Shown piece after piece: positions 6,650 to 14,354 of a stretch of DNA of 64,000 nucleotides (position 1 is its first letter; each line of letters starts with the position of its first letter). The notes under the pieces were generated by a model, which did no database searches, was not told the DNA's origin, and worked only from the letters and a program-made list of their open reading frames with translations. This DNA comes from Acarospora socialis. Lineage: Eukaryota > Ascomycota > Lecanoromycetes > Acarosporales > Acarosporaceae. A program made the position numbers and the translations under genes. The stretch is taken from NCBI GenBank assembly GCA_025617375.2, contig JAMYGW020000004.1, positions 62,001-126,000 of the forward strand. The letters run 5' to 3'.

Positions 6650-9600
6650 ATGGCCGAAGTCCAGCAACGAGAACCAAGGAGTCGTACTGTCGTTGGAAAG
6701 GAGATGCTGCAGCGGATGTTGCAATTGGAGAAACAGAGCCAGGTGGGTAACCTTAGCTGCAGAGATCCTCGTTGGATACATCCATCTTCCGTGTCTCCAC
6801 AACGACACCAAACTCCTTAGTCAAGTATTGGTTCAACTAACTAATCGTAATCGCACAGCAACGTCGCTCACCGACTACCTGTACGTCGGTGCCGGCCGTC
6901 GACTCTGCGCCATTACGCCGCAACCTTCCACAGCAGGAAGAATACGTTACAAGGACTCAACAACACCCAACTCAAGAGACCTCGGAAGTCCCCGGTCGAC
7001 CAACACTAGCCCCCAGGGCGAAGACTCAACCTTTACCACCCCTCACCATACCGATTCGCAAGCCGATGAAAGAGATACATCCCTCAATGGGCTCCGAGCA
7101 CGGGGCAGAATCAAGTGATCTACCGGCTGCTGATATATGTGTATCGCCGAGTTGGTCGGACTTTGGGAACAGTAAGAAGAAAAGGGAAAAGAAGCGAGTG
7201 GAGCGGGAGAAGAAAGAGCAAGAGAAGAAGGCGAAGAAAATGGAGAAAGAGCAGCAGGCTGCCGCCAAGGCTGCCGGGAAACGGCTGAGCAAGCGTCCCC
7301 CACCGGCGGCGATGGAAACTCAACGCATGCCGGCTGCCCTCCGACCTTCGATGACCAGTCCACAGGCGAACTCAACGGTGACATCAAAAGAAAACTCAAG
7401 GACCTCCTCTCGACGAAGCAGCTTCAACGACCAAGATCCCAATTCAGAGAATACCGACCGACCGTCGTCATCGCGTCACTCATTCAGATCATTCTTCAGC
7501 GCACCTCAGCTCCCTAAGCTCTTTGGACCACGCTCACGAAATGGTTCGACTGGCAGCATGAACGCATTTGCTGAGGGCGAGAGACAATACTTGAAGGATT
7601 TGATCAACTATGCGGACGAACAGGATGCATCAGACACAGAAGCCAAGCCTCAGCCTCTGAAACCGAAGACTCGAAAAGTGTCATTTTCAGTAGACACCGA
7701 TGACGCTACGCCCGCGATACCGCTCGACTCGAAAGTAGAGCTGCCTTGGATGGCTTCAGAAGGACGAGGGAGCAAAAATTCCTCGGCGTCGTCATTAGGC
7801 CTTAGGAACAAACCAGAGGGAGAGTGTCGGCACCCGAGTTCAACCAGGGCACGATCAAACGAAGGTATGCAGCAGGATGCAGAGAATATGAAAGCAGTGT
7901 GCGAGACTGGGAAAGCTCGAAATAGTATTCCACAGCCGGAGCAACAAGACTTGCCAAGAGAAAAGCGAGGGATCCAGAACACAGTCAAGTCGTCCCAAAT
8001 GGTACATACCGGCAATAGCAGCGGTTATGTACAGAAACATCGGATGCACCAACAACAACGCTCCATTGCAGGATACGAAGACGAACTTGCTTTGGGACGT
8101 TTCAATGACCTTACGGCGGCACAGATAATACTGGAGCTCGAAAGGCAAAGACTGCCACCGACACCTAGCGACTCCTTTGAGTCGCTCCACCGACCAAAAC
8201 GGATCCAGGAACAGTATGCCTGCAGTCAAGAAAATCTTCGAGACCTTACTCTACAAGAATTAAAGGCGGAGGAGCACCACCTTGAACACCACCTTGAGCA
8301 CCACCTTGAGCACCACCCTTTCTATTCCGAGCGGCCATTACATCCGGCAAGCTTTGACCGTCAACCCCCATCGTCGCCCAAGGGTGAAAAGACTCCGGGA
8401 CTTGCTCGACGTCCGAAGATTGCCAGCCCGACGATGTCTACAAACTCTTCCAATACAATCACAAAGGTCTCAAATGCTACTAGCTCGCAATTTCGACCTG
8501 TCTCTCCTCCCTCGCCAGTCAGCCCGGAAACAGGAGCCTTGGTCTCGAACATCTCCAAGGCGGAGAGCGCGCTCGAGACGGGAGGGAGAAGTCCACCAAG
8601 CCCGCCACGTCGAAGCAGTCGTCGGAACAGTAATAAATCGGGGCACGAGACATTCCAACAACCATTGTTCGAGCCTTCAACAGCACCTTTGAAGACCGGA
8701 GAGAAGTCGAATTCCTGTAAGATTTCCTCTCCAGATCCGACTTCGAATGGTGTCCAACCATTTTCCAAATTCTCGACGACGCCAGACCTCTCGCAACCAA
8801 TGGACGATTCACTTTCTTCATATTCATGGAGGTCTCTAGACAACGTCAACCGTCCGAGCAGCTCAAGATACAGTACATCCGCAAGCACAATCTCTAGCGT
8901 GGACAGCATTCCTACCCCTCAGCTTTGCATCAACAAGCCCGTGCCGGAAGTGGTGATCGAAGGGATCGACGGCGACGGAATGACCAGAAGAGCGTCAATC
9001 AAACGACCTCGATCCCAACCACAACTTCAAGACCCAGCAACGACGACCCAGGACCTCTCCTTCCTCCCAGAACTTAAACACCAAGCCCTCGTCAAACCCG
9101 ACCGTAAATCCCCTACCGCCTCTCTCGCTTCCTCTCGCTCCTCCTTCGGCGGTAATCCTCCTTCCACCTCCGACAAACACAGTCTTCATTCGTCCCCTCA
9201 GTTTCCGACACCCAGTCCACCGAGCACACGACCCAGCTCCGACGACGGCAGCTCCCTGCCCGTTGGGGCTTCCAGCCTCAATTACACGTCCAAAGCCGCT
9301 CTCCGATCCCCTAACCACAACCAGGCCGCTTCCGGGTCTGGATCGCTCCTCCGTCCCGGCTCCGCGCCCCGCCGGTCGACAATGAGCGCTACGTCGTTTC
9401 TCGGCGGACCGGGAGCGGGGTCGGCGGCGGGCGCGACACCGATCAAACCGCTGGCGAAGATGTTTGTCATTTGCTGCAAATGCAAGTTTTGGCACGATCT
9501 GCCGAGTGCACTATACAAGGAAATGGCCATGTCGAGACAGATTGTGGATGATGAGCAGGACGTCAGTCCGGAAGGCGTCGGTTCGAGGAATGAGGCTATG

Positions 9601-9756
9601 AACCAGGGAACTGAGAGTGAAAGAAAAGGAAGTACGGGTAAAGTGCAAGGGAGGATCGAGACGAGCGTGCAGTGTCCGTGGTGCGAACATGGCATGAGCA
9701 CGGCTTGTTGTGCCGGATGGAGCTGTGTGGTTTATTTGCACGAGCGACACCACTGA
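6650..9756 (+). CDS. Large low-complexity fungal protein with C-terminal Cys/His module
   Basis: Exons 6650-6742 and 6859-9756 (116-nt intron, GTGGGT donor, CACAG acceptor) give 996 residues. The N-terminus (VGKEMLQRMLQLEKQSQ) is a short helical segment. Around residues 125-170 lies a highly charged Lys/Glu stretch (KKKREKKRVEREKKEQEKK), probably coiled coil. Most of the rest is Ser/Pro-rich and likely disordered, with a 12-bp tandem repeat at 8272-8319 encoding EHHL units. The only strongly structured part is the last ~110 residues: CCKCKFWHDLPS, then CPWCEHGMSTACCAGW and a terminal LHERHH, a plausible zinc-binding fold. I recognise the C-terminal pattern as shared by uncharacterised filamentous-fungal proteins but know no function. 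The Ser-rich linkers suggest a phospho-regulated scaffold; that is inference only. Confidence 0.8.
8272..8319 (+). repeat. 12-bp coding tandem repeat (EHHL units)
   Basis: About four copies of GAGCACCACCTT with one or two substitutions encode a Glu-His-His-Leu run inside the large low-complexity protein. The near identity of the copies suggests recent expansion. Confidence 0.8.
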
Positions 9757-10892
9757 TGTGTTATCTTTGACTGAATTGGTATCAGTGGTCGGGGTGGGGT
9801 GGAGTGGAGTGGAATACAATACGTGAAATGGGATTGGATGCATCATGTTGGCTTACACTATCTACTGCTAAAAATATCATATATGTCTGTTTTAATTATT
9901 ATGGGGTACTGTGGGCTTTGGTTGTAGCACGACAACTTGGATGAGTAGCAACGCAAAGCTTTGACACGGAGCCGTGCATTTTGGCTGTGGCTATATAGGT
10001 AGCATTGACTTGACGTTACCAATCCAATTCTACTCCTCACGACTGAACAGCTCTCCTATATCTTACTCAACCATGACATGAACACGAGGCTTTTCCAAAA
10101 CACAACAGGAGTCCAATACCCACCTCACTGCGTTATTCGACACGGTCGTCGAACGTCTCAGTTCCTCCACGGCGTTTCAAGGAAGCCATCAGTGCCTGAT
10201 GATGATAAATCCAGTCACCCTGCAAAAGCACCAAGGCAGAAATCTAATGATTTCGTAAGTGCGAAAAGAGGTATGAGCCGTGGATCGTTGTGACAAGTTC
10301 GCGTGTTAGAATCCCAAAGACGTTCACCAAAAGTCTTCCAAGCTCTCCAGATCGGGTCCGGAGCAAGAAAGAAAGGAAGCGCATCTCATCGTCATCAACT
10401 GATGATGATGATGATCGACCTCTTCATAAGTGCAGGACAAACGGGCGGAGCACTCCTTACTGCAAAGTTCAGTGATAGTCAAAAACTTATCATAAGGGTT
10501 GAGCAGTAAACCAACAAAACCATGACGATTAACGATTCATCTCATCTACCACGAACGGATTCGTGTCCGCTACTGCACTTGGCTCATGTACCTGTATAGT
10601 ACACCTTGCTCCTTCTGTGAGAACGGAGAAGTTGCACTCAGCTACGGAGTATAGCGCACGGGCACCAGAACAGTACGGTCTGACGGTATAGGGAGTGGAA
10701 GCAGCGTCCATGGACTGCGGTGTGCGTGTGACGAGGGAGAGCGAGAAGGGCAATGGGGCTCTCGTAATCACGCTCTGTTATATAATATAGAAAATTAAAC
10801 AGCAGACAAAGGATAGTAACTCCCTTCTCGAACCGACGTGATGACTCCCCTGCCTTAGGTAGGCACAAGTAAAGAGGGTGAGCAGGGCTGAG
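9757..10892. other. Intergenic region
   Basis: No supported gene. Short frames here lack conservation or good starts. A CCTTAGGTAGGCAC motif of the window-wide AGGTA type lies near 10852, close to the left edge of the inverted-repeat element. Confidence 0.55.
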
Positions 10893-11189
10893 TACGGAGG
10901 CACAGCCCACTAGTTATGCCGCACTCACTAATTCAATGACTAAGCAATCTAAGAACTTCATCAGCCATAACATATTTTATTTGAGCGATACAACTTTTGC
11001 AACTTTATAGCTGATTACTTTCTTTCATGTATTGTATCTACTCAGCAGCATTCAAATAGATTGAAATTGAAAAGAAAAATTTGATTAACTGGAAGTTGAT
11101 TTATATGATTGCACACAAAAGAGTAAAAAACCGACCAGGCTTAGTCAGCCATTAGCGCTGCGGCATAACTAGTGGGCCGTGCCTCCGTA
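10893..11189. mobile_element. MITE-like element with long terminal inverted repeats and TA flanks
   Basis: An element at 10895-11187 (~293 bp) is bounded by inverted repeats. The left end CGGAGGCACAGCCCACTAG continues into TTATGCCGC; the right end is its reverse complement with one mismatch over about 29 bp, and weaker complementarity runs ~25 bp further inward to TGACTAAGC. A TA dinucleotide flanks each end (10893-10894 and 11188-11189), fitting the TA target duplication of Tc1/mariner-type elements. The interior is markedly A/T-rich and has no coding capacity. It sits about 330 bp upstream of the L-arabinitol dehydrogenase start codon. Confidence 0.8.
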
Positions 11190-11522
11190 CGGGTCGGACA
11201 ATCTCCGCCCGAACGAACCCCTCCATCCCACTCCTCGCAAGCCCACTGCCTCCACCCCGCTGACCTCGACTACCCTTCATCTCACTCCCAGCACAACCAC
11301 CTACTCGTCCTCTACAGACATAGTCGTCTCGCCATACCATACCCATCTTATCCAAACAACCCAGTCGTTCACGGGCACACACGCCCCTCATCCTCCTCAT
11401 CCCGCCTCTCAATCTCGTCACTTCCCTTCAAACTTCGCTCCCATCCCCCTTTCCCCTTCCTCCTCGCTCACCACCAACCTCTCCTCTCCTCTCGCCCTCC
11501 TCCCACCAATCCCCATCTCACC
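11190..11522 (+). promoter_or_regulatory. Pyrimidine-rich leader/promoter of L-arabinitol dehydrogenase
   Basis: The interval between the MITE-like element and the start codon is strongly C/T-rich, especially 11380-11520, as is common just upstream of highly expressed fungal genes. A CCAAT lies about 20 nt before the ATG. No XlnR/AraR-type site could be asserted by eye. Confidence 0.45.
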
Positions 11523-12970
11523 ATGTCACCCCCCACGTCCTCCTCACCACCTCCTCCACCGACAAAAGCAAAAGCAAAAGCAAAGGAAAACATCGCCCTC
11601 TACACGACGCCCTCGCACGAGCTGTATCTCGGACGGGCCGGGCCGGATCTCGAAGCGGTTGTGGATGGGGATGGCAGGGATGGGCATGACGCGAGGCAGG
11701 AAGTGAGTGAGAGTCAAAAGCTACGGGAGGGGGAGGTGTGTGTGGGCGTGAGGAGGACGGGGATTTGCGGGTAAGTTGCCTTTCGCTTTTTCATGTCAAC
11801 TCGAATTCTCTCTCCGTGGCGGGAATAAGAGATTTAGGCGGGGTAGGAGAGGGATGGATTTGGTGGGGGCACAGCGGAGGAGGTTCTGAGGTAGAGACGT
11901 GGCTGGTTGGCTCCTCCTCCCACCTACCTGCCTAAACACTGGTACTGGAGAAAGAGTTGGGGGCTACCTCATACAGTCTGAATAAACACATGCCATCCGT
12001 ATCTAAGCAACCTCACAAGCTGATCGATTACCATTTTAGTTCCGATATCCACTTCTGGCAGCACGGCCGCATCGGGCCCATGATCGTCTCCTCCGCGCAC
12101 ATCCTCGGCCACGAGTCCTCCGGCGTCGTGCTGGCCGTGCACACACCCTCGGTCACGCACCTCCGCCCCGGCGACCGCGTCGCCATTGAGCCCAACGTCA
12201 TCTGCCACGCGTGCGAGCCGTGCCTGACGGGCCGGTACAACGGGTGCGAGAAGGTGCGCTTCCTGTCGACGCCGCCGGTGCATGGGCTGCTGCGGCGATA
12301 CGTCGTGCATCCGGCCATTTGGTGTCACCCGATCGGCGACATGAGTTTCGAGCACGGGGCGTTGTTGGAGCCCTTGAGCGTGGTGTTGGCGGGCATGGAG
12401 AGGGCGGGTGTGCGGCTGGGCGATCCGGTGCTGATCTGTGGGGCCGGGCCAATCGGGCTTGTGGCGCTTCTGTGCTGTCGCGCGGCGGGCGCGGAGCCGA
12501 TCGTCATTACGGATATCGATGACGGGAGGTTGAGGTTCGCCAAGGAGCTGGTGCCGAGCGTGAAGACGCATCTTGTGCAGAAGGTCGCGGCCGAAGAGAC
12601 GGCGGAGAAAATTGTTGGCTTGGCGGGTATGAGGCCGGCGGTGGCGTTGGAGTGTACGGGCGTGGAGAGCAGTGTCGCGACGGCGATCTGGTCCGTCAAG
12701 TTCGGTGGCAAAGTCTACGTGATCGGCGTGGGCAAGAACGAGATGAATGTCCCGTTCATGCGTCTGAGCACGCAGGAGATCGACCTGCAGTTCCAATACC
12801 GCTATTGCAATACGTGGCCGAGAGCCATTCGGTTGGTGAGGAGTGGAGTGGTTGATTTGTCGAAGCTCGTGACGCATAAGTTTGATCTCGAAGAGGCCCT
12901 GGAGGCTTTCAAGACGGCTGCGGATCCGTCGACGGGCGCGATAAAGGTTATGATCAAGAATGATGATTGA
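11523..12970 (+). CDS. lad1: L-arabinitol 4-dehydrogenase
   Basis: Exons 11523-11770 and 12040-12970 (269-nt intron, GTAAGT donor, TTTTAG acceptor) encode 392 residues of the zinc medium-chain dehydrogenase family. The splice restores RRTGICGSDIHFW, which carries the catalytic-zinc Cys. Also visible: GHESSG with the catalytic His/Glu, the structural-zinc cluster [15 protein letters not shown], the substrate-region [14 protein letters not shown], and the NAD fold [11 protein letters not shown] followed by ITDIDDGRL, where the acidic residue implies NAD+ preference. The enzyme oxidises L-arabinitol to L-xylulose in the fungal L-arabinose pathway, in the cytosol. Oddities are a long intron and a Pro/Ser-rich N-terminal extension with a KAKAKAKEN run. 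Xylitol or sorbitol dehydrogenase is the main alternative, but the [15 protein letters not shown] context favours LAD. Confidence 0.92.
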
Positions 12971-14354
12971 TTTTGAGCGTGTGTTCCCTGTTGCGTTTCG
13001 AAAAGCGTGCTTTTGAGTTATTGTGGCTTGGCACAGCAACGCGATATGAATTGCATGACATGATGAACTGATGAGATGGAATGATTGACATTAAGGATAC
13101 TATCGTCATTTTCTCACAGCTGCTGTGAGACCTTATTCCCGGAACACACAAAGTCAATGGATCGGAGAGCATCTCTAAGTTTTCCAAGGTATGAGTCGAT
13201 CGACTGGTTGAAACCCTTGGGCAAGAATGATGGCTGCTAGGCTTGGAGATCAAAGGGTTGGCTTCGAGATAGCAAAACTGCCAGAATGACTGCCTCCTGA
13301 ATGGGAGCCCTCCAAGTTTAGGAGACAGCTCCTATGACACCCAAGTCCTAGCTTCCACGCAAGAGGCCGAACGTATTGAATGCTCCACTATAACTCTGGA
13401 AGCCAACTCTCGCCGCACAGCCACTCGGTGTACGCACCGACGCTTCGGAGAAGTCTCAACGACAATCGAGACTGTTCCTCATACCAGGAGAGTACCAATA
13501 CCCTTCCATAGTGTGGCCCACAAAACAGACGCACTAGCAGTGTAGCCAGAGTCTATAAGTTGAAGGTATGGAGTACGATTTGTATACCGCCAAGGAGTCT
13601 CTGTTCCAAATGTTCTCACTACCAGATTCCGACCCCTCCGTGACCGAAACTATAGTGGAGTACAGTCATGAAGGGTCGGCACTCGCCACTCTTGCGGTAG
13701 TTGGGCTTGTATAGGGTGACTGAAGAGGACGATAGGTGGCTCAAAGTCTTGTTTCAGACTCGTAGATTCGATGTGAAGCAGATGGTCCCAAAAGATGTTT
13801 GAAGCTGTGAGCCTTAACCGTTTTTGAGCCGAAGGATAGATTGGAAGTATCATCATGCGGGCGAGACGTCACCTTACACTAGTGCTCGGTCCTTGAACGA
13901 GGTCGACTATAACGAAGCTTTATGGCCCGCGAATTCATTGTTGTTCATGATGAAAACGGTGACCACACGTAGCCATCTCGTGCATCTCGCAGTGACCAAG
14001 GTGCCTTGCTTCGGAGGTAGTCTTCTGGCGAGCGCCTGCCGTAGGTTAGTTATAATGATGCCTCTCCGAAAGAACAGTTCATATGAACGCGGCAACCCTG
14101 TCTCTGAATGGGGGAAGGAAGTTTGAAGTTCGAAGGGTGTAAAGAAGACGGATGATTGATACTGTCCGCTTGCAAGTATCAGTATGGGTGTGGGGTGAAA
14201 GAGCTGTTCACCGAATCCTATCAGCCTTCGATTCTCTATCTGTTCTGAACCAAATACCGTGGAGCATTTTCGAAATCACTCAGCTTTGTTGTCCTCAAAC
14301 GTCGAACACTGGCACCTTCCTCCGAGATAGGGCAAGAGCGGATTTGAGCAACTC

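Follow-up and report, generated by a model that had tools for sequence, protein, structure and literature searches.

A probable Tc1/mariner-type MITE family in Acarospora socialis, with one copy upstream of an L-arabinitol 4-dehydrogenase gene

The DNA analysed here (the window) is a stretch of 64,000 nucleotides from Acarospora socialis that contains a two-exon gene for a predicted L-arabinitol dehydrogenase (LAD) of 392 residues. The best solved relative of this protein is the L-arabinitol 4-dehydrogenase 3m6i (E 9e-172), and the identification is a good one because this structure stands far ahead of the second-best one, from a sorbitol dehydrogenase (E 2.5e-89). The splice sites of the GT-AG intron were placed by eye and keep the frame; at 269 bp this is long for an ascomycete intron. 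Upstream of the gene, in the approximately 1.77 kb between the stop of a 955-amino-acid open frame (6889-9756) and the LAD start codon, lies a short element bounded by terminal inverted repeats (TIRs). It ends 333 bp before the ATG, in agreement with the approximately 330 bp given in an initial annotation, which had also named the gene. The features of the locus are collected in Table 1.

Table 1. Features of the MITE copy and of the neighbouring LAD gene (positions in the window)
Feature	Position	Strand	Basis or remark
MITE copy including TA on both sides	10893..11189	+	297 bp; sequence, inverted-repeat search and genome search
Element proper without TA	10895-11187	+	293 bp
Left TA, presumed target-site duplication	10893..10894	.	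sequence; TA at both ends in 17/17 complete copies
Right TA, presumed target-site duplication	11188..11189	.	sequence; TA at both ends in 17/17 complete copies
Left TIR, 29-bp near-perfect part	10895..10923	+	inverted-repeat search, TIR pattern
Right TIR, 29-bp near-perfect part	11159..11187	-	inverted-repeat search, TIR pattern
TGACTAA, inner end of extended left TIR	10937..10943	+	presumed transposase-binding sequence
TGACTAA, inner end of extended right TIR	11141..11147	-	presumed transposase-binding sequence
Internal block TTGAGYRAYACAACTTTTG	10981..10999	+	conservation between subgroups similar to that of the TIRs
LAD exon 1 (neighbour gene)	11523..11770	+	translation, protein comparison
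LAD intron, GT-AG	11771-12039	+	splice sites by eye, in frame
LAD exon 2 including stop codon	12040..12970	+	translation, protein comparison

The initial annotation, made from the window's sequence, had described an A/T-rich, non-coding segment of about 293 bp with near-perfect inverted repeats of about 29 bp (one mismatch), a weaker inward extension and TA on both sides, and all of these points held. Without the two TAs, which the annotated interval had included, the element is 293 bp long, with a GC content of 0.38 vs 0.54 in the 500 bp on either side. Judged from open frames it is non-coding: no frame of at least 90 amino acids lies wholly inside it, and three such frames overlap its ends. 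The inverted arms (10892-10923 and 11159-11190) are 32 nt each and 97% complementary, with one mismatch and 235 nt between them. A search of the 64-kb window for inverted arms no shorter than 28 nt and no more than 1 kb apart, using an exact 10-base seed, returned this pair and no other, and none was found in 20 simulated first-order Markov windows. A 26-letter TIR pattern allowing up to 3 mismatches likewise had two sites in the window, both belonging to the element (mean in shuffled sequence, 0.00). The weaker inward extension is real, and in 32 aligned arms from the family the terminal similarity reaches approximately 52 bp. Because of these TIRs, the whole element folded as RNA forms a strong hairpin (-100.1 kcal/mol, z -8.97, equalled by 0 of 200 shuffles).

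When the 297-bp element was used to search its own genome (31.1 Mb), 27 match lines were returned, some of them one arm matching the opposite arm, and TIR patterns revealed additional ends beyond these matches. Copies were defined from 33 fetched regions, the remaining regions being fragments or chance matches. At least 17 copies are complete (289-308 bp); they occupy 16 places, and fragments exist besides. These counts are lower bounds, the genome search having scored the best candidates only. Fragments left out of the 17 are L030/L051, L036, L038-L043, L047, L049, L075 and L076, and L050, L052, L053 and L077 were dropped as chance matches. Short length (under ~600 bp), TIRs and dispersed copies of similar length, by which MITEs are recognised, are thus all found in this family, and the flanks of the copies are unrelated, all of which supports the initial description of the element as MITE-like. 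That description had named two outcomes that would speak against it, a single genomic copy whose orthologous sequence is conserved at the same site in distant species, or the lack of any other locus with these TIRs, and neither occurred. The family is apparently undescribed so far, as judged by a full-text literature search for the TIR strings alone, in which no occurrence of six 16-letter strings was found.

The copies fall into subgroups that are 59-75% identical to one another. The subgroup of the window copy has four members with mutual identities of 90-95%, the three others being 90-93% identical to the window copy; a second subgroup contains six copies (90-98% identical), a looser third contains six (79-97%), and L034 alone stands outside. 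In the tree, bootstrap support is 100% for the window-copy subgroup and for the tight six-copy subgroup and 86/85 for the looser one, and long inner branches followed by short outer ones suggest several bursts of transposition. At one place on contig 12 (L029 1001-1645; C12:167429-168073), two copies from different subgroups lie 48 bp apart in the same orientation.

Two short sequences are conserved in this family apart from the outermost repeats. TGACTAA, which closes the extended TIRs on their inner side, is exact in 27/34 arms, and in both arms of 10 of the 17 copies. The block TTGAGYRAYACAACTTTTG occurs unchanged in 12 of the 17 complete copies; whole-copy identity between the most distant subgroups is no more than about 60-65%, whereas this block of 19-20 bp matches the TIRs, approximately, in its constancy. 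Across the three larger subgroups, 18 of its 20 columns are constant, a level reached by 43 of 10,000 permutations of the inner columns in a test that took columns as independent. The block was absent from those parts of the larger elements (described below) that were read. There is a small chance that it could serve as a second, internal binding site for the transposase or a host factor, needed by short elements for mobility in trans and carried into promoters, such as that of LAD, on landing.

Several observations bear on whether these sequences have moved. TA is present at 34/34 ends of the complete copies, although this is weaker than it appears because the search patterns themselves began with TA and because the right end of L037, which follows a one-base gap, was shifted by a single base so as to fall on a TA; the fragments L043 and L036 end in something other than TA. 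No flank-to-flank match between copies was found at E 0.01 among the 32 flanks of 200 bp around the 16 places. Further evidence comes from the copy L033, which sits inside a different repeat. Insertion is shown in this case because nine paralogous arms of the host repeat, in five loci (L049, L088, L092, L093 and L094), run through the same point without the MITE. These empty arms have three nucleotides between the anchor bases shared with L033, where the site before insertion should have four if TA was duplicated and two if nothing was, so the size of the target duplication is ambiguous by one base. Alignment of copies, which the initial annotation had proposed as a check on TA duplication, shows TA at the ends, but the empty site is one base off either way. 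Joined-flank searches of the own genome for empty sites, made for all 16 places, returned the L033 case only, and the joined flanks of the window copy matched only themselves. The host repeat of L033 is another inverted-repeat family (GTAACGTTTTCTAGGATTAARCGA...), present at L049 26-460, L088, L092, L093 and L094.

The strong hairpin and the conserved internal block would also be expected of a non-mobile, conserved non-coding structure, such as a regulatory RNA or a silencer, that had been amplified by segmental duplication. The unrelated flanks and sharp boundaries of the 17 copies, together with the nine host-repeat arms that lack the MITE, argue against such an origin, and a search of window positions 9500-13500 against Rfam at gathering scores gave no match; we consider this explanation scarcely conceivable.

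The initial annotation had further proposed a search for a full-length Tc1/mariner-type element with the same TIRs, and this was borne out in part: the outer TIR has a similar counterpart in larger elements, of which one contains a broken transposase-like protein, but no intact one was recognised. A degenerate TIR pattern identified two ends on contig 5, C5:670799 and C5:707794, inverted with respect to each other and 37 kb apart, with 2 mismatches each (the reversed control of the pattern gave 10 and 9 hits at up to 3 mismatches). The two ends are 77% identical over 128 bp. Their outer 40 bp are 92.5% (C5:670799) and 90% (C5:707794) identical to a TIR of the MITE copy L031, and the C5:707794 end is 82% identical to the window copy over 38 bp. 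C5:854465 marks a third such end, and C5:1815643-1815902 holds a further copy. Similarity between the MITEs and these larger elements stops after the outer 40 bp or so, and since the interiors do not match, an origin of the MITEs by simple internal deletion is unsupported.

Behind the C5:670799 end is a broken frame with 15 TGA and 1 TAG. Read with X at the stops, its protein has a weak match to HTH_Tnp_Tc3_2 (E 8.3e-5; 23.2 bits, below the curated 31.5) and 27% identity in tblastn to a locus bearing a DDE_3 domain, L058 (E 9e-11). Related sequences occur at C5:1815446-1815682 (73% over 79 residues, with no stop in the stretch), at C2:1885269-1885997 (36% protein identity, 12 stops) and, more weakly, at two further places. 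The contig 2 sequence belongs to an element of 2017 bp with a left end at C2:1885068 (TACAAAGGC...), a right end at C2:1887084 (TACGGAGGC... read inward) and TA at both. Its right end opens with the same nine letters as the MITE, and this nonamer is present at that one end only; originally a 3-mismatch pattern hit, the end was accepted because it has an inverted partner 2 kb away with a transposase match between them.

Other candidate parents were less rewarding. The 17 DDE_1 (pogo-type) and 19 DDE_3 match loci, some of which overlap, were searched over approximately 3.1-3.5 kb each, and this TIR was absent from all 36, and an autonomous parent among them was rejected; as none of the 17 DDE_1 loci shares the TIR, membership of the pogo group was rejected as well. 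The presence of GCACGGCCCAC inside the TIR of L060/L069 was treated as chance. A Starship origin of the interval C5:670799-707794 was also discarded, none of the 10 DUF3435 matches listed falling there. Within this interval (L075, L106, L105) there is a transposase-like start behind one end and an open frame of 67 residues that ends near the other, and other repeats lie within the 1 kb read before the C5:707794 end. The pair may represent one interrupted element or two truncated ones, and the ends may not belong together. Positions C7:1314580 and C8:962810 look like further ends.

It could be argued that the MITEs belong to some other DNA transposon superfamily that leaves TA or short duplications, and that the likeness of their TIRs to Tc1-type relics is coincidental. 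No intact parent element was recognised in the own genome, the larger copies having been read in part; the MITE interior is not common to the relics, the protein match falls below the Pfam cut-off and the L033 empty site leaves the duplication size ambiguous by one base, all of which would be compatible with this idea. Coincidence would, however, have to account for about 40 bp at roughly 90% identity to two larger-element ends, and for the independent contig 2 element of 2 kb, which has a related transposase and a right end starting TACGGAGGC, and we regard it as very improbable. The contig 5 elements are the probable parent lineage of the MITEs, and their assignment to the Tc1/mariner-type elements is of moderate strength.

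The segment upstream of LAD is thus very probably a copy of a non-autonomous Tc1/mariner-type MITE that was mobilised in trans by the transposase of a larger relative. This relative would make a Tc1/mariner-type transposase which, by analogy with mimp and impala (PMC3599309), would bind the approximately 50-bp TIRs of the MITE, so that the element could be cut and pasted into a TA, presumably duplicating the TA upon insertion. The transposase lineage represented by the contig 5 elements would have mobilised these MITEs. The family is probably inactive, or nearly so, because no intact parent was recognised.

The initial annotation had raised the possibility that the insertion brought or displaced regulatory sites of a sugar-regulated gene. 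We take the TGACTAA in the MITE arms to resemble an AP-1-type site. If the copy upstream of LAD had been co-opted as a regulatory module, its two inverted TGACTAA sites or a transcribed hairpin could alter the expression of LAD. Neither the 333 bp leading to the ATG nor the 500 bp upstream of the element contains a site of the AP-1/Yap pattern tried, and the strength of the hairpin and the conservation of the internal block between subgroups would also suit a regulatory role. Transposition nevertheless explains both the motif and the hairpin, because the motif is found family-wide and the hairpin stems from the TIRs. With a branch length of 0.045 the window copy falls inside the range of its subgroup (0.013-0.069), and in Fusarium, promoter deletions at two effector loci gave no sign that the mimp acts directly (PMC3599309).

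A pattern scan of the element found two TATA-like words besides the two TGACTAA sites. Patterns for AraR, XlnR, CreA, CCAAT and AreA were absent from it, which also counts against co-option. The AraR and XlnR patterns are absent as well from the 333 bp downstream and the 500 bp upstream of the element, so the regulator scan carries little weight in either direction; the 333 bp between the element and the ATG contain three CreA-like sites and one CCAAT. Among the matches listed in a literature search on L-arabinitol, ladA, transposon and promoter, nothing was relevant. Co-option is therefore very improbable in our judgement, and the insertion before LAD is most likely a chance landing.

The mutation pattern of the MITEs was compared with that of the DDE_1 loci. 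In the central 600 bp of 11 of the 17 DDE_1 match loci (L012, L014, L015, L017-L023 and L025) the observed/expected ratio of CpG is 0.00, CpA plus TpG is raised and TpA shows no clear rise, and 53 of the 75 stops listed in the 17 DDE_1 matches are TGA. This signature points to a CpG-specific mutation of repeats rather than the usual CpA-specific one. One survey (PMC4352252) includes a truffle with a predominantly CpG signature plus CpA, and some basidiomycetes with CpG only. In the 17 MITE copies the CpG ratio is 0.20-0.96, and the C-to-T counts show no sign of classical CpA-type RIP. Such changes in the window-copy subgroup favour CpG, with 10 at CpG (on 18 sites) and 3 at CpA (on 39), but by count there is no preference for CpG in subgroup B (10 CpG, 13 CpA, 22 CpT) or subgroup C (7, 11 and 12). 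Short MITEs have been described as less affected by repeat-directed mutation (PMC9970103), and the retention of CpG in our copies fits this report, the mutation here being of the CpG and not the CpA kind. The neighbouring pair on contig 12 has the lowest CpG content among the 17 copies.

The TIR sequences of the mimps of Fusarium oxysporum presumably differ from those of the present MITEs. In other respects the mimp/impala system is a close parallel: mimps are short and non-coding, have TIRs (of approximately 27 bp) that resemble those of a Tc1/mariner element and target TA, they form several subfamilies from past bursts with copies in promoters, and the transposase of their parent impala is broken in the sequenced strain (PMC3599309). 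Mimps are smaller, at 200-220 bp, with 103 in the published table (PMC3599309), whereas here we find at least 17 complete copies of 289-308 bp. The MITEs of Zymoseptoria tritici also show distinct bursts as clades with long inner branches, undergo less repeat-directed mutation than long elements and are often near genes (PMC9970103); they differ from ours in species and sequence, and proximity to genes was judged here by open-frame lengths alone. Sclerotinia sclerotiorum provides another ascomycete with non-autonomous members of Tc1-Mariner families; its six MITEs (481-813 nt) were placed in named families (PMC4188875), whereas here the parent is seen as relics only.

The element upstream of LAD is therefore real and of an ordinary kind, and its biology repeats what mimps and other fungal MITEs already show. 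What is added is a MITE family of Tc1/mariner type that appears to be undescribed and whose probable parent lineage is broken. The LAD copy also provides a defined candidate marker, scored by presence or absence, for the promoter region of a gene in the arabinose pathway. Should strains without the copy exist among relatives, LAD regulation could be compared directly with and without the MITE. Adjoining the MITE copy of L045 there is a further element of 443 bp (L045 467-909) with perfect inverted arms of 88 bp. A part of this element resembles DDE_1 ends (79-83% over approximately 40-49 bp), which marks it as belonging to a second family of MITEs whose parent can be recognised.
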